The notes under the pieces are model-generated. The model saw only the letters and a program-made list of their open reading frames with translations. It was not told the DNA's origin and did no database searches. DNA of 64,000 nucleotides. Origin: Spirochaetes bacterium ADurb.Bin218 (GTDB taxonomy: Bacteria > Spirochaetota > UBA4802 > UBA5550). How positions within the stretch are numbered: the stretch's first letter is position 1; every line of letters begins with the position of its first letter. Shown in pieces: positions 45,062 to 55,089 of the stretch. The position numbers and the translations under genes are program-made. The DNA lies in contig MWCI01000001.1 of NCBI GenBank assembly GCA_002069965.1, forward strand, positions 62,001 through 126,000, given 5' to 3'.

Positions 45062-45942
45062 ATATGAAGATCGAAAATATTTTGGCTTATTTAAAGTCTC
45101 TGAGCTACTCAATCCCTGCATTGTTTAGGAATGTTAGGAACTCTCCTTATGCAATCTTTTATCTTTTTCTTTCTCTCTTTTTAATAGTGCTATTTACTAT
45201 TGTTACATTTCCTTTTGATCATTTAATTAGAAAAAAACTCTCTGAACTGGAGGGCAAATCCTTTAGAATTATATCTGTTGATCAAATAGATGTAAATTTT
45301 CTGCGACCAAGCAATGTAAAAAAACTGGAGCTTGTGCTCCTTGATGGGACAGAGATCAATACAAAAAATGTTATTTTAAATCTATCCCTTAATCCCTATA
45401 GATTGTTTATAAGTCATCGTATTCTTTCTGATGTTCAGGTTGATGATTTTTTTTATAAAAGCAATAGCAATACTATAAGTCTTAATCTCAACGGCAATGT
45501 CGACCTAATCCTTGATCCTAAGAATAACATTCCAACAAATGGCGATGTTAAACTAATTTTTTCAGAAGTTAAGATAAAGCCCGATAAAATTTCTATTCCT
45601 GGCCCCATGGGAAACATAGATCTAAATATTGAATTGATCACCATACCAAATGGAGTTTTTTCTATGGATATTATAAACTCTACTGCCAGGATAAAAGATT
45701 TAAAACTGACAGGCCCTGAGTTAAACTGCACAATTGCAGGATCTATTGCTATGGTAAGTCCTATTGAAAGGAGTAACCTCAATTTAACTTTGATAATAGA
45801 TCCTGAGTCATCTATTTTGGAAAACTATCGTGATCTGGTGAAGATGATGACTAAAAATAATCCTTTAACTCTTACCCTAACAGGTACAATAGATAGGCCA
45901 AAATTGCAGCTTGCAGGAGTTGAAAAAACAAATGAAAATTGA
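45058..45942 (+). CDS. gspN: Type II secretion system protein GspN (Leptospira-like type)
   Basis: Single-anchor protein of 294 residues with a membrane segment near residues 28-50 (YAIFYLFLSLFLIVLFTIVTF). The periplasmic part has LKKLELVLLDG-like strands and a late NPLTLTLTGTIDRPKLQLAG that resembles the AsmA-type beta repeats of GspN. The layout fits the GspN family first described in Leptospira. It overlaps gspM by 4 bases and the IspH-UbiA gene by 11. It closes the secretion gene set; no gspO prepilin peptidase follows. Confidence 0.85.
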   Translation: MNMKIENILAYLKSLSYSIPALFRNVRNSPYAIFYLFLSLFLIVLFTIVTFPFDHLIRKKLSELEGKSFRIISVDQIDVNFLRPSNVKKLELVLLDGTEINTKNVILNLSLNPYRLFISHRILSDVQVDDFFYKSNSNTISLNLNGNVDLILDPKNNIPTNGDVKLIFSEVKIKPDKISIPGPMGNIDLNIELITIPNGVFSMDIINSTARIKDLKLTGPELNCTIAGSIAMVSPIERSNLNLTLIIDPESSILENYRDLVKMMTKNNPLTLTLTGTIDRPKLQLAGVEKTNEN

Positions 45943-47656
45943 GATGGCAAAAAACTCAGGATTTTGCATGGGAGTTCGCAACGCTGTTATAAAAATTGTA
46001 GAAGAGCTAAATACCTCTGATGAGGAGATCTATGTCTATGGTCCCCTCATCCATAATCCTCAAACAATAGAGGTATTAAAAAATCGAGGACTTATTACAA
46101 TAAATTCTCTTGATGATATAAAAGGCAAGTCTGTTGCCATAAGAACTCATGGCATTCCTGTTGATGAAAGCAGGTATATAAAAAATGAAGCCTCAAGAAC
46201 AATTAATCTTACATGCTCACGAGTTGCACGGGTCCAATCTTATATAAAGAAATTTTCATCACAGGGATATTTTACTGTTATTGTTGGAGATAAAGATCAT
46301 GCAGAGGTAATTGGGTTAAAAAGCTATGCAAGTTCAGGAGTCTTTGTGGTATCTGAACTTGAAGATGTAGCGAATTTGCCTGAGGCAGAAAAATACCTTG
46401 TGGTTTCTCAAACAACACATGAAAGAAATCACTTTGAACAGGTAGTAAAACTCATAGAGAAAAAAAATAAAGATGTCCATGTTATAGATACAATCTGTGA
46501 CTCCACAAGACTCAGACAGGATGATGTTCATAATGCCATTGCTCGTGGAATTGATACATTGGTGGTTGTCGGTGGAAGAAACTCTGCAAATACAACCAGA
46601 CTGGTTAAAATTGGAATTGATAATGGAATAAAGACCTTCCATGTAGAGACAGACGAAGAACTTAATCCAGAAGATTTTGCAAACTCTAAATATGTCCTTG
46701 TAACTGCGGGAGCATCAACTCCTGGCTGGATAATCAACAATGTCCTTGAAAGGCTCTATATCATAAATAATACAAACAGCAATTTTTTTGTAAAACTATT
46801 AAACAGATATATGGAATTTTTTGTGCGTAGCAATATCATATCCTCCATAGCTGCATTTTTGATGGTCTGTATTGCCAGATCTTACGGAGGATTAAAATTC
46901 GACTACAGGCATGGACTTATTGCATCGCTTTTTATATTTGTTATGTATACTGTTAATAATTATCTTGATAGGGAATTTCTGATTAAAAGTAACTCTTATA
47001 AATATAAGGTTTATGAGAAATATGGGAAATCACTTTTATTCTTTGCAATTATTGGCTTTTTTTATTCCATCTATCTCTCTTACAGTATTTCACCTGTTAT
47101 GACAGGGCTCTTTTTGCTTCCTTACATACTGGGCATATTATATTCAACTCCTCAGTGTAAATTTTTTGTAAAAGGACTTGGAATAGATTTCATAAAACGA
47201 CTTTACAATACAAAGGCTGTGACAGGTTTTGGATGGCTAATTGTGCTGGTATTTATTCCCTATTTTGGTTATAAAGTTTCTATGTTGACATATCTATCCA
47301 TCTCTGCGTTGTTTTTTGCTATTTTATTTATGCGACAATTTATAATTGATCTGGTTGCTTTTCAGGGGGATCTCATACTTGGAAGAGATACATTACCAAC
47401 ATCCCTTGGTATAAAAAGGGCTATTAAAATGACTCTTGCTATAGCTATAGCAGGTGCACTTATATTCTCTGCAATAACAATATATCATGGTAATTGGCTT
47501 TATCTTTTGCTTAATTCCTCTGTTCTCTATTATTATTTTCTACTGAGAAAGATTAAAGAAACAGCATATTTAGTATCCATAAGATATGAGATATTGATAG
47601 ACCTAAATTTTGCTCTGATGTTTTTGTGCTATTTAGCTACAGGATTACATTTTTGA
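45932..47656 (+). CDS. ispH: Fusion of IspH (HMBPP reductase) and a UbiA-type prenyltransferase
   Basis: Residues 1-280 are a full 4-hydroxy-3-methylbut-2-enyl diphosphate reductase, last step of the MEP pathway: 4Fe-4S cysteines C12 (GFCMGV), C95 and C189 (DTICDSTRLRQ); substrate residues H41, H73, H123/E125 (DHAEVIG), QTT, GGRNSANTTRL and GASTPGW are all kept. Residues 290-574 form a polytopic UbiA-like domain. The second aspartate motif DLVAFQGDLILGRDTLP (473-489) is intact; the first is weak (NNYLDREFL, 342-350). UbiA enzymes move prenyl groups onto acceptors in the membrane. ATG 45932 overlaps gspN. A single uninterrupted frame joins both parts. Confidence 0.92.
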   Translation: MKIEMAKNSGFCMGVRNAVIKIVEELNTSDEEIYVYGPLIHNPQTIEVLKNRGLITINSLDDIKGKSVAIRTHGIPVDESRYIKNEASRTINLTCSRVARVQSYIKKFSSQGYFTVIVGDKDHAEVIGLKSYASSGVFVVSELEDVANLPEAEKYLVVSQTTHERNHFEQVVKLIEKKNKDVHVIDTICDSTRLRQDDVHNAIARGIDTLVVVGGRNSANTTRLVKIGIDNGIKTFHVETDEELNPEDFANSKYVLVTAGASTPGWIINNVLERLYIINNTNSNFFVKLLNRYMEFFVRSNIISSIAAFLMVCIARSYGGLKFDYRHGLIASLFIFVMYTVNNYLDREFLIKSNSYKYKVYEKYGKSLLFFAIIGFFYSIYLSYSISPVMTGLFLLPYILGILYSTPQCKFFVKGLGIDFIKRLYNTKAVTGFGWLIVLVFIPYFGYKVSMLTYLSISALFFAILFMRQFIIDLVAFQGDLILGRDTLPTSLGIKRAIKMTLAIAIAGALIFSAITIYHGNWLYLLLNSSVLYYYFLLRKIKETAYLVSIRYEILIDLNFALMFLCYLATGLHF

Positions 47657-50025: not shown

Positions 50026-50925
50026 ATGTCAAAAGAATTACTATTTGATGAACTACTTGAGATAAGGGAAAATCTCAAAAATAGCATAATCCCCAGTGAA
50101 AAATCCTGGAATCTGCTTAATGAGATAGAGAAAAAAATCAACCTTGACAGAGGGGATAGACAAAAGAGAGAGCTGCCTTTGATTGAAAAAATTTTTGCCA
50201 GCTTCAATCTTCATAATTTTGCAGACTCAACTGCCTTAATTAAAAAGTCATCACCAGTAGTAGAGGTGATCCATCACTGTGGTAGCAATATACTTTTAGC
50301 CGAGACTAAGACCTATCTTGAGGATGATCACTCCTTTTATAATACTATAGATAGTGTAACAATTGCTTCCACTAAATATAATCTTTTTTTTAAAGAATTC
50401 TCTGTTAAAGATGAAAGCTATGCAGTGCTAACATGGACATCATCAAGTTCTTTTGATATTCATAAGCTTGATAGTTTTTGTGATGTTATAAGCGCTTTCA
50501 TAAAACATTCTGCTGTCACTCATAGTTTTTTTTATGATCTTATGGAAAAAATAGATTCTGATTTTCATAATACTCTTGCTCTTTTTAGTAAATCAAGCCC
50601 CAGTATAATTTTAGTTAAGTTTGATTTTATTTTTGAAAATTCCATTAATACATTTATTGGAATTTCAAAATACATCTCCAGTTTTTTAAGGGAGAACACA
50701 GGTGATAATTCTTTTGTTATACCTCTCTCCTTCAGCTCCTATCTCATAATTGCTCCACAGGAGGATGAGTCACTTTTGATAAAGAATTTTATTTCATCAA
50801 AAAAATTGAGCTTTAATTACAAAAATATATTGCTTCCTTATATGGCTTTGAAAATAGATTCCAATTCTTCGTTGTCTATATACGATATATTTGAGGATCT
50901 ATGCAATTTGATGAGATTATCGTAG
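50026..50925 (+). CDS. Unknown protein (299 aa), possibly a degenerate GAF-GGDEF-type protein
   Basis: No family is recognised with confidence. The protein is soluble. Residues about 70-165 could be a GAF-like fold (SPVVEVIHHCGSNILLAET ... YAVLTWTSSSSFDIHKLDSF). Residues about 190-299 have a faint GGDEF-cyclase rhythm: VKFDFIFENSINTFIGISKYI, then SFSSYLIIAPQEDE where GGDEF would be. If so, all catalytic residues are gone. The gene is 15 bases behind folC and its last 9 bases overlap the convergent GpsA-fusion gene. Confidence 0.65.
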   Translation: MSKELLFDELLEIRENLKNSIIPSEKSWNLLNEIEKKINLDRGDRQKRELPLIEKIFASFNLHNFADSTALIKKSSPVVEVIHHCGSNILLAETKTYLEDDHSFYNTIDSVTIASTKYNLFFKEFSVKDESYAVLTWTSSSSFDIHKLDSFCDVISAFIKHSAVTHSFFYDLMEKIDSDFHNTLALFSKSSPSIILVKFDFIFENSINTFIGISKYISSFLRENTGDNSFVIPLSFSSYLIIAPQEDESLLIKNFISSKKLSFNYKNILLPYMALKIDSNSSLSIYDIFEDLCNLMRLS

Positions 50926-53241
50926 ATGTCTTTTAACTATCTCAGCTCTTTGAGATACTGCTTCTTTGTTCAGAGATTCCCAAAAATCCCCTTTTCGCTG
51001 GATCAGCTTATGCTCCAGTAGAAATTTTATACCTCTTGAGGCAATATCCTTATAGCTCCCATCAAATTTTATTGGGTATTCACTTAAAAATCTTTCAACA
51101 TATTTTTTTATCTTATGGGCTTTCAAAAGATGATTTTTTCTATCAAGTAATGCACAGATTATATGATGTGGCAAAATTATTTCATCAGCAATCCATGACT
51201 CTGTTACAACATCTGTTATATCTATACCGGCATTTGCCTCCCTTGTAAAATCAGAAAGAAAAAATAAATCAGAGAATCTCACATGAACTGGTTCGGAAAA
51301 TTCTTTTCTCACTGTGTTTTCATCAAATTTTTCTGGATAGGAAAGCTGGCATGGAACAAGGGCTATTTCAGTTGACTCCTTAAACATAACACGAGTCAAA
51401 ATAGAAAAAAAACTATTATCAACTGGAGATATATCAAAATTTTTTTCGGGATACTCCTCGGGGAAATATAGAAGATTGACTCCATGGGAGATTAAGGTCG
51501 ACAGATATTGAATAACACATTCTCTATACACAGGGTTATTGAATCTTCTTTTATCTATTATAAATCCACCGCTTTTTTTAATCAAATACTTGTGGAGTAT
51601 CCCGCTAATATTTTCAGATGGAACATAAAAACGGGGAAGAGGCAGTTCTTTTTTATATATTGAAAATAAATAGTAAAAGTAGTCCTTTAAATTTTTAAAT
51701 CTTGCAACGTATATGATGTTTACTCTATCCTTAAGATTTTTAATATTTGAAAAATTACCTTTAATTTTTATTTTATTGCGGCTGCCGGTGATTTTATTGA
51801 GAATATATTTGCTATAGGAAAATTTTAGAAAAAGGTTGGAAAAAAAAGAGTTATTATAATCAATGATTTCATCTATATATAGAGCGCTCAGTTTTTTCAC
51901 AAATTTTGGATAGTTATACAGTGTAAGTTCAGATATATAGGCAAATTCATGACCAAGAGAGATTTTGCCGCTTTCTTTTAAATTTTTAGCTGATTCTTTT
52001 AGTTTGGTTATTATATAATTTTTATTTTCAGTTGAATTGTCTTCTCTGGTAAATTTATCAACTACACTTTCAAGAATAATCTTTTTAAAAGCCTTACCCT
52101 TCAGGGTTTCAAGGCCAATCTTTTTCTCTTTTACGTGGAGTTTTGCATAAGAATAGATTTCATTAAATTTTTCTGGATTCTTTATAGTTTCAATTAAAAG
52201 CGACGGTTCTTTTTTGTTAAGAAGAACCTCATAAAGGGATCTATATACAGGTATATCTATTGATTTCTTTGCAGCCAGCTCAATCAAGGGCTCTATTGCA
52301 TAAGCACCCTCTGCAAGATAGTTAAAGTTGCTACTTATCTTCTCAAGGACATATTCAGGTTTAAATTTTAGATAGATTTTATCTGTCCAGGAAAGAGTTG
52401 TTCCCCTCTCCAAAATTTTTGTTGCAACTTCTCTTCCAAAGCGTCTGTTTCTGCTATGTTCGCTTAAGGCTGTAGCAACAAGGTCCCCTGCACCTGCAAT
52501 GTCAATTATAGTTTCTGGCTTTGCACCAAGAGCTGTGCCCAGTTTATACATTTCTTTAAGTGATTCTGCAATTAAGGCTCCCTCAAGATTATCACCACAC
52601 TTTGGCAGAACGCTTATCATACCTGCAGCTATTGCAGCTGGATTTTTTAATGTCCCACCGAGATCTACCCCTATAATATCATCACTTTCCCTGCATTGAA
52701 AGAAATCGCAGTTAATTAGACTCACAAAAATTTTACGATCTGCTTCTGAGTGCGAGGCAACAACTATACAGGTATGAAAGTATTTAGTCACTTCTTCGGC
52801 ATGGCTTGGTCCATAAATGCCAACAACTCTCCCCTTGTAATCGGGAATAATTTGTTCAATAGTTTCTGAGATGGTCAAAATTTCATTGTTGAACTTGCAA
52901 AAACCCTTTGTAAGATAAGATATGGGTATTTTTTCTATTAGCAAATCCCCTACTTTTTTGACTGTATCAGGAATAACCTTTGATGGTGTTGCTATAATAA
53001 GCGCTTCTGAATTTGATATTGCATCTTTTAAATTATTAGTTGCCCACATGTTAGCTGGCAGAGGAACACCAGGTAGGAATTCGCTGTTAACCTTTTTATT
53101 GTTTATGGAGTTTACTGTAGATTTTTCATAAGCCCACATCTTAACAATAATTCCTGGGTGATTTTCTGCTATGACCTTTCCCACAGCAGTTCCCCAGGAA
53201 CCTGCGCCTATGATTGCTATCTGTTTTATTTTTTTTTGCAT
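50917..53241 (-). CDS. gpsA: Glycerol-3-phosphate dehydrogenase (GpsA) fused to a PlsB-like acyltransferase domain
   Basis: Residues 1-355 are NAD(P)-dependent glycerol-3-phosphate dehydrogenase: GAGSWGTA dinucleotide motif, GPSHAEEV, catalytic Lys 200 in LGGTLKNPAAIAAG, and GAGDLVATALSEHSRNRRFG. An insert of about 20 residues lies near 285-305. Residues about 385-774 resemble the PlsB family: GGFIIDKRRFNNPVYRECV (559-577) matches GAFFIRRSF...LY, and FPEEYPE the EGGRSR block. The HxxxxD catalytic motif is lost: the aligned segment reads ARFKNLKDYF (514-523), Asp kept, His replaced by Phe. ATG 53241 (GTG 53244 is an alternative). It follows rpoD by 21 bases. Confidence 0.88.
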   Translation of the reverse strand: MQKKIKQIAIIGAGSWGTAVGKVIAENHPGIIVKMWAYEKSTVNSINNKKVNSEFLPGVPLPANMWATNNLKDAISNSEALIIATPSKVIPDTVKKVGDLLIEKIPISYLTKGFCKFNNEILTISETIEQIIPDYKGRVVGIYGPSHAEEVTKYFHTCIVVASHSEADRKIFVSLINCDFFQCRESDDIIGVDLGGTLKNPAAIAAGMISVLPKCGDNLEGALIAESLKEMYKLGTALGAKPETIIDIAGAGDLVATALSEHSRNRRFGREVATKILERGTTLSWTDKIYLKFKPEYVLEKISSNFNYLAEGAYAIEPLIELAAKKSIDIPVYRSLYEVLLNKKEPSLLIETIKNPEKFNEIYSYAKLHVKEKKIGLETLKGKAFKKIILESVVDKFTREDNSTENKNYIITKLKESAKNLKESGKISLGHEFAYISELTLYNYPKFVKKLSALYIDEIIDYNNSFFSNLFLKFSYSKYILNKITGSRNKIKIKGNFSNIKNLKDRVNIIYVARFKNLKDYFYYLFSIYKKELPLPRFYVPSENISGILHKYLIKKSGGFIIDKRRFNNPVYRECVIQYLSTLISHGVNLLYFPEEYPEKNFDISPVDNSFFSILTRVMFKESTEIALVPCQLSYPEKFDENTVRKEFSEPVHVRFSDLFFLSDFTREANAGIDITDVVTESWIADEIILPHHIICALLDRKNHLLKAHKIKKYVERFLSEYPIKFDGSYKDIASRGIKFLLEHKLIQRKGDFWESLNKEAVSQRAEIVKRHLR

Positions 53242-53262: not shown

Positions 53263-55029
53263 TTACATATAATCCAGATAATCTTTAAGCTTTCTTGCTC
53301 TGGTGGGGTGACGCAATCTTCTCAGAGCCTTTGCTTCTATCTGCCTGATTCTCTCCCTTGTAACTTTAAATACATATCCAACTTCCTCAAGCGTATGGGC
53401 ATATCCATCATCAAGTCCAAATCTCATTCTTATGACCTTTTGCTCTCTTGCAGGAAGAGTGTTGAGAACAGCCATAATCTGCTCATTTAATAACCTGTGA
53501 GCAGCTGTGTTTGCAGGTGAATCAACATCCTTGTCCTCAATGAAGTCGCCAAGTAATGAGTCCTCTTCTTCGCCCACAGGGGTTTCAAGGGATATAGGCT
53601 CTCTTGCAACATTTTTAACAGCCTTGACTTTTGCAACAGGCCAGCCAAGTCTATCTGCAAGCTCCTCAGGGGTCGGTTCTCTACCAAACTCCTGCTGGAA
53701 TAACCTTGTTTCTCTCATTACTTTATTGATCTGTTCAATCATATGAACAGGAACGCGTATTGTCCTTGCCTGATCAGATATTGCTCTTGTTATTGCCTGA
53801 CGTATCCACCATGTAGCGTAAGTGGAGAATTTATATCCCTTTCGATACTCAAATTTATCAACTGCCTTTATAAGGCCTATGTTTCCTTCCTGAATGAGAT
53901 CAAAAAAGTGCATTCCTCTATTAGCATATTTTTTTGCTATAGAGACAACTAATCTTAAGTTTGCATTTATCAGCTCTTTCTTGGCTCTTTGAATTTTCCT
54001 CTGGCCATAGGCAATTTGCTTCCCCCATTCAAGTATGTCGTCAGCCTCTGCCCCTGCCTCTTGCTCGATCCTGCGGATTTTTCTTTCGTTGTTTCTTATA
54101 TCCTTAACAATCTCAAGCAATTCATCCTTATTTTTGAGTTTCAATTCTTTTATAATAAGATCAATGTCTTCGTCTTTTTCAACTTTTCTTGCAAAGTGTT
54201 TGAGCTCTTTTAAATCCTTGTTATACTTTTCTTCTATTTCTTTGAAAAATTTATAGGTCTCATCAATTCTCTTGACCATTGATTGAATTTTATGGAAAAT
54301 CTTAGAGATCTCCTCTTCGCCTATCTCCAGTTCCTCAATGGCCTGTCGAATTTTTTCTTTTGATTTGGCAATTTCTTCTTTTATCTTCTGGGCCTCTGGT
54401 GAATCTTCTTCATATCGCTTTATTTTATTTTGTAACTTCAAAATTTTGGAGTCTTCATCAATTACTATTTTCATCTTAGCATTGTATTTCTTCTCCAAAT
54501 CAGAGAGGTCAACAGATGAAAAGTAATAGAGCCTATTTATCCTCAATATCTCAGTCAGTTTTATCTTGCCAGAGGTAACCCTTGGATGATTCTTTATAAG
54601 TTCATTTACAAGCAAAGATGAATTGATTACAGCCTTTTCAATGATAATCTCTCCTTCCTCAATTCTCTTTGCTAAATCCACCTCTTGCTCCCCTGACAGA
54701 AGTGACACTTTGCCTATCTCTTTCAGGTAAAGCCTTATGGGGTCATCAACGTGAGAGGTATCATCTGGTGATGCTGCCAGATTTTTCTTAGATGTAGTTT
54801 TCTTTTTACTGATAACATCTGGAGTAACTTTACGAGTAGATTCTTCAACTACATCAATGCCCATCTGATTGAGCAGTATAAAAATATCGTCTATTTTTTC
54901 AGAATTAAGCAACTTATCTGGCAGTATTTCATTTATTTCATCATAGGTGACCTCGTTATTGGCTTTACCAAGCTCAATTAACTTTTTTACTTCTGCAATG
55001 TTTTCAAGAACAAGATCATTTTTACTCAT
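53263..55029 (-). CDS. rpoD: RNA polymerase primary sigma factor
   Basis: Housekeeping sigma-70 of about 588 residues from ATG 55029; an upstream in-frame start at 55080 adds 17 residues without support. An N-terminal region 1.1 is followed by region 1.2 ([20 protein letters not shown]), a charged non-conserved region of some 200 residues, regions 2.1-2.4 ([33 protein letters not shown]), region 3 ([11 protein letters not shown]) and region 4.2 ([20 protein letters not shown]). All promoter-contact parts are intact. It lies between dnaG and the GpsA fusion in one leftward operon. Confidence 0.97.
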
Positions 55030-55089
55030 ATTTCGATTATACCTGCTAAAAAATTTTTTATAAAAAGTAGTATGACACAAAATAAGGCA

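Follow-up and report, generated by a model that had tools for sequence, protein, structure and literature searches.

Why should GpsA, regarded as a soluble supplier of glycerol-3-phosphate while PlsB or PlsX/Y is usually seen as the control point of bacterial phospholipid synthesis, carry a PlsB-like acyltransferase tail that lacks the catalytic histidine? The question is raised by a gene in a stretch of 64,000 nucleotides, hereafter the window, from Spirochaetes bacterium ADurb.Bin218 (assembly GCA_002069965.1, contig MWCI01000001.1, positions 62,001 to 126,000). Its family, UBA5550, is placed in the Spirochaetota, and Spirochaetota MAGs with a butyrate pathway have been classed in the uncharacterised class UBA4802 (PMC13248872). 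Here, we describe the two halves of the encoded protein, their fate in relatives and the functions that the tail may have.

Results

A complete GpsA with a PlsB-like tail

The gene and its parts are listed in Table 1. Translation from the ATG at 53241 gives 774 residues, and a GTG one codon upstream would give 775. A pseudogene or an assembly error can be dismissed, since the frame is conserved in about 38 genomes and dN/dS is below 1 in relatives. Elsewhere in the window (45911-47656, plus strand) another fusion joins IspH/LytB (PF02401, 9e-80) to a UbiA-like prenyltransferase membrane domain (PF01040, 2e-6, below the gathering score).

Table 1 Features of the fusion locus, in positions of the window.
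Feature	Position	Strand	Description or basis
gpsA::acyltransferase-like fusion gene	50917..53241	minus	single uninterrupted frame; 774 aa plus stop
GpsA half, residues 5-355	52177..53229	minus	profile matches and motifs
PlsB/LPLAT-like half, residues 386-774, catalytically degenerate	50920..52086	minus	profile matches and motif alignments
Candidate membrane-contact helix, residues 466-484, hydrophobic, net-cationic, before the acyltransferase core	51790..51846	minus	moderate enrichment, weak in the window protein
Motif I position, F515 KNLK D520 in place of HxxxxD	51682..51699	minus	profile alignments
Motif II position, SGGFIIDKRRF, residues 557-567, Lys replaces Arg	51541..51573	minus	alignment
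Motif III position, FPEEYPE, residues 593-599, retains Glu but not Gly or Arg	51445..51465	minus	alignment
C-terminal module, ~90 residues (about 685-774)	50920..51189	minus	common to the intact fusions of family f34
rpoD (sigma-70), immediately upstream of the fusion gene	53263..55080	minus	

The N-terminal half is a full-length GpsA. It matches PF01210 (1.7e-38) and PF07479 (3.8e-35), both over gathering, as well as NF000942 (258.9 bits, cut-off 257). The nucleotide-binding GxGxxG and the catalytic Lys, Asp and SRN residues are in place, with GAGSWG, K112 (TKG), K199 (LKN), GDL and SRNRRFG all present. The protein departs from GpsA in that it continues for about 420 residues at the C-terminus and, compared with the structures 3k96 and 1z82, has extra sequence inserted after the SRN motif and ahead of the C-terminal part. 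The GpsA half is predicted to be active in the reduction of DHAP with NAD(P)H. Each genome of the window's order that has any PF07479 match has a single one, and outside family f3 it is everywhere the fused gene. The same search gave no GpsA match in the order genomes G002, G015 and G033, probably owing to assembly gaps.

The initial annotation had read the C-terminal half as PlsB-like, and the profile matches agree. PF01553 matches the whole protein at 3e-5 and the tail alone at 9.6e-6 (25.9 bits, gathering 23). TIGR03703 (plsB) matches at 4e-6, its 25.5 bits lying below the equivalog cut-off of 618.5 bits. A profile of 30 related tails matches the solved PlsB-type structure 9vuq at 3.9e-7, and hhalign of this profile against 29 intact PlsB-type proteins from the same and neighbouring genomes gives E = 8.7e-14 (98.1%) over a span from the pre-core helical region to past motif IV. 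A single-sequence AlphaFold model of the tail (pLDDT 34) was too poor to use, and a plasmid collection held no match to the tail.

The acyltransferase half has lost catalytic residues

F515 and D520 fall opposite the His and Asp of HxxxxD in both the 9vuq and the hhalign alignment, so that the annotated loss of His with retention of Asp stands for the window protein. The block annotated as an altered EGGRSR reads PEEYPE. The tail thus lacks the HxxxxD of motif I, the Arg of motif II and the EG(G/T)R of motif III, and it retains the Pro of motif IV (P630). HxxxxD occurs just once elsewhere in the chain, as H653 VRFS D658. This match lies past motif IV, has its His in 6 of 30 members and has a counterpart by chance in 39% of shuffled tails; we rejected it as an alternative active site.

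The loss is not a single-genome event but a trait of the order as a whole. Within the window's order, 38 genomes from six families (f1, f2 and f4 to f7) carry the fusion; in G001, from the same genus, the contig that bears it breaks off soon after the GpsA half. In family f3 of the order GpsA is unfused and differs in type. Among 37 homologous tails the His position is taken by F (9), A (8), Y (6), G (3), L (3), H (2), N (2), W, C, R or V. The Asp of motif I is kept in 31 of the 37, the Arg of motif II in 9, the Glu of motif III in 11 and the Pro of motif IV in all; the Gly and Arg of motif III are essentially gone. PlsB-type paralogues have His, Asp, the motif II Arg, the motif III Glu and Gly and the motif IV Pro in 35 of 35, and the motif III Arg in 33 of 35.

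Tested relatives require the His and the Arg of motif III (E. coli PlsB H306; human AGPAT1 H104 and R181), and loss of the His abolishes or strongly lowers activity; a Lys at motif II is tolerated in AGPAT1 (PMC4280512). Given these requirements, the tail is very probably inactive as an acyltransferase in the window protein and in most of the order.

Two close relatives from the window's own subclade (L011 and L012) do carry HxxxxD at motif I, with the motif III Gly-Arg missing. Their His may reflect a regain, or a late loss elsewhere; both are possible.

The tail is under purifying selection

Drift of the tail is constrained in relatives. Among the close pairs suited to measurement its dN/dS was 0.09-0.13 in f7 and f4 and 0.31-0.35 in f5, compared with 0.04-0.11 for GpsA; purifying selection is thus present but weaker on the tail. 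Across the order, mean identity is 59% for GpsA and 27% for the acyltransferase core, and GpsA is the better conserved half in 666 of 666 pairs. PRF, GG and Y-x-E are nearly invariant in the tails. The C-terminal module of about 90 residues is absent from f5 and from some f1 members. The f5 tails (L042-L047) are about 250-280 residues long, lack this module and have the higher dN/dS; the pseudo-acyltransferase may be eroding further there, with a minor role left for the tail.

A catalytically intact counterpart in family f34

A phylum-wide search with the tail profile led to a second group of fusions in a distant spirochaete family, f34 (16 genomes, 8 genera; L090-L105), which provides the intact relative whose existence the initial annotation had left to a survey. 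These proteins have about 820 residues and are homologous to the window protein from end to end, with the same domain order, linker and C-terminal module at about 24% full-length identity. In contrast to the window protein, their acyltransferase motifs H(R/K)(S/T)H(L/I)D, GAYxVDR and EGTRSR are intact in 16 of 16, as are the motif III Arg and the motif IV Pro. Unlike a bifunctional GpsA-GPAT of the f34 kind, the window protein does not have intact catalytic residues in both halves, its acyltransferase half being degenerate.

The f34 fusion is likely to be the GPAT of these organisms, by elimination, because a PlsB profile search of the 16 genomes matched the fused gene alone in every one and PlsY is absent from 9 of them. 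Its GpsA half evolves fast: mean identity is 42% for GpsA and 56% for the acyltransferase core, the GpsA half is the less conserved one in 88 of 91 pairs. A standalone canonical GpsA is present in 14 of the 16 genomes. The catalytic residues of GpsA are mostly kept in the fusions. Judged from these patterns of conservation, the two lineages have kept opposite halves, GpsA in the window's order and the acyltransferase in f34. Among the matches listed, the plasmid collection gave only unfused proteins of GpsA length for the f34 fusion.

One f34 genome, G124 (95% complete), has no standalone GpsA, only the intact fusion and an inverted fusion of 699 residues; there the GpsA half in use may be the fused one. 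Inverted fusions of about 700 residues, with a PlsC-like acyltransferase N-terminal and a GpsA-like domain C-terminal, were seen in f34 and f11 genomes (L115-L118, L051). In their GpsA half, GHSPxA and KDRQ stand in place of the canonical glycine motif and SRN, and the domain sits on a very long branch of its own (length 3.77).

Other acyltransferase genes

The question whether an active PlsB exists elsewhere can be answered for the window's genome: contig C94 encodes a separate, intact-looking PlsB (L089) with HKSHMD, GAFFVRR and EGTRSRTG. About 25 other fused genomes have intact PlsBs as well (HxxxxD, EG(G/T)R; weak probe). Neither PlsX nor PlsY was found in the window's genome, and both were set aside as its GPAT on that ground; PlsY occurs in some fused genomes of the order only. 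Genome G000 also encodes an acyltransferase-containing protein of about 818 residues (L008, C7:12287-15670), whose C-terminal part resembles an alpha/beta hydrolase by eye (GFSTGAG), and, on C8, two tandem proteins of ~850 residues (L004, L005) that look by eye like AMP-ligase/ACP/acyltransferase fusions.

Discussion

The tail shares with PlsB (TIGR03703; PDB 9vuq) the helical region, the acyltransferase core, the motif IV Pro and the motif I Asp. It differs from PlsB in the missing His and motif III Gly-Arg, in being about half as long and in its fusion to GpsA. Taken by its sequence, it is a distinct fused lineage rather than a straightforward PlsB, with conserved residues of its own (PRF, VDR and N-x-(L/V)Y-x-E) that are common to the intact fusions.

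The explanation that we consider best, and hold as a whole with moderate confidence, starts from a bifunctional enzyme in which GpsA, making glycerol-3-phosphate from DHAP, was joined to a PlsB/LPLAT-superfamily enzyme that acylates glycerol-3-phosphate. In the window's order the acyltransferase half would now be a pseudoenzyme that retains its fold, the Pro of motif IV and, in most cases, the Asp of motif I, without the catalytic His and most acceptor-binding residues, and acylation would be left to the separate intact PlsB. The GpsA half would stay active as the only GpsA of the cell. The tail would then serve as a structural or docking module that most likely tethers GpsA to the inner membrane surface, perhaps beside PlsB, and glycerol-3-phosphate would be made where it is used.

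A docking role is suggested by general LPLAT biology and by a moderate enrichment of a hydrophobic, cationic segment. The most hydrophobic 19-mer of the tail lies in the pre-core helix, a segment that makes up ~9% of the length, in 12 of 37 fused proteins of the order and 8 of 16 of f34, compared with 2 of 35 PlsBs; in the window protein the segment is weak (KD max 0.42).

Docking is only weakly favoured over regulation. The main rival, which we regard as a possible but tentative reading, is that the tail binds an acyl donor (acyl-ACP/CoA), lysophosphatidate or glycerol-3-phosphate and allosterically matches GpsA to the supply of acyl chains. The motif IV Pro, invariant while the acceptor motifs II and III were lost, fits here, since motif IV has been linked to acyl-donor binding in AGPAT1 (PMC4280512). 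The near-invariant PRF, GG and Y-x-E could mark a maintained surface or pocket, and purifying selection on the tail points the same way. The f34 fusions, with their intact catalytic residues, have PRF and Y-x-E too, though, so that these need not serve sensing; moreover, a drift to 27% identity is large for a ligand site. A wider version, somewhat more doubtful, has the bifunctional fusion resolved in opposite ways: the dead acyltransferase would sense lipid or acyl donors and act allosterically on the sole GpsA, and in f34 the GpsA half would be becoming a regulator beside the live and only PlsB-type GPAT.

We think it unlikely that the tail is a mere vestige, a dead domain that persists as part of the fold or stability of GpsA with no role related to lipids. 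The shortened and relaxed tails of f5 would fit, as would the lower conservation of the tail than of GpsA in every pair of the order. On the other hand, the full-length frame is kept in most genomes of several families, dN/dS is about 0.1 in f4 and f7, and the invariant residues of the tail speak for a constraint of its own.

Did the degenerate tail descend from a bifunctional enzyme at all? The GpsA tree separates the fused GpsAs of the two groups from every standalone GpsA (support 100/99), although the f34 branch is very long (2.57) and long-branch attraction is possible. The tail profile matches f34 tails at about 1e-45 to 1e-62, mostly over their full length including the C-terminal module, but PlsBs at about 1e-13 at best and over a partial stretch; the PRF/VDR/N-x-LY-x-E signature is common to degenerate and f34 tails. 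A single origin of the fusion is likely, not proven. The alternative, that the fusions of the two spirochaete groups are independent and that the degenerate tail never belonged to a common GpsA-GPAT enzyme, can appeal to an acyltransferase tree with long branches that does not unite the fused groups (a joint clade was not rejected, AU p 0.445), to the unfused GpsA of different type in f3 of the same order and to neighbour genes that differ between the groups: a sigma-70 motif lies beside the fused gene, on the same strand, at 33 of 37 fused loci of the order and at 0 of 14 f34 loci. Set against the grouping of the GpsAs, the far stronger profile matches and the common signature, we consider an independent origin improbable.

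That the tail is still an acyltransferase, with a non-canonical mechanism or a different acceptor, is very improbable: the HxxxxD of L011 and L012, the widely kept motif I Asp and the VDR or Glu of some members would speak for it, but the His is replaced in 35 of 37 tails, the motif III Gly-Arg is missing, His loss is strongly detrimental wherever tested (PMC4280512) and the window's genome has an intact separate PlsB.

Fusions of GPDH are known from algae, where phosphatase-GPDH enzymes occur in Chlamydomonas and Dunaliella (PMC7468427; PDB 6iuy). In these bidomain phosphoserine phosphatase-GPDH proteins, as in the window protein, GPDH is fused to the enzyme of a neighbouring step; in contrast, the algal partner is a phosphatase for glycerol production and not an acyltransferase, and the lineage is unrelated. 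A search of openly accessible papers yielded no account of a GpsA-PlsB fusion or of such a pseudo-acyltransferase. Domain fusions and pseudoenzymes are known kinds; the matched pair of a dead and an intact form is unusual.

This pair allows one to test what the dead half of an enzyme does. It offers a clear case of a pseudoenzyme in central lipid metabolism, with an active sister that serves as a control. A maintained but apparently dead GPAT tail on the sole detected GpsA, together with its intact counterpart, is a natural test of whether the supply of glycerol-3-phosphate and its acylation are coupled, be it physically or allosterically.
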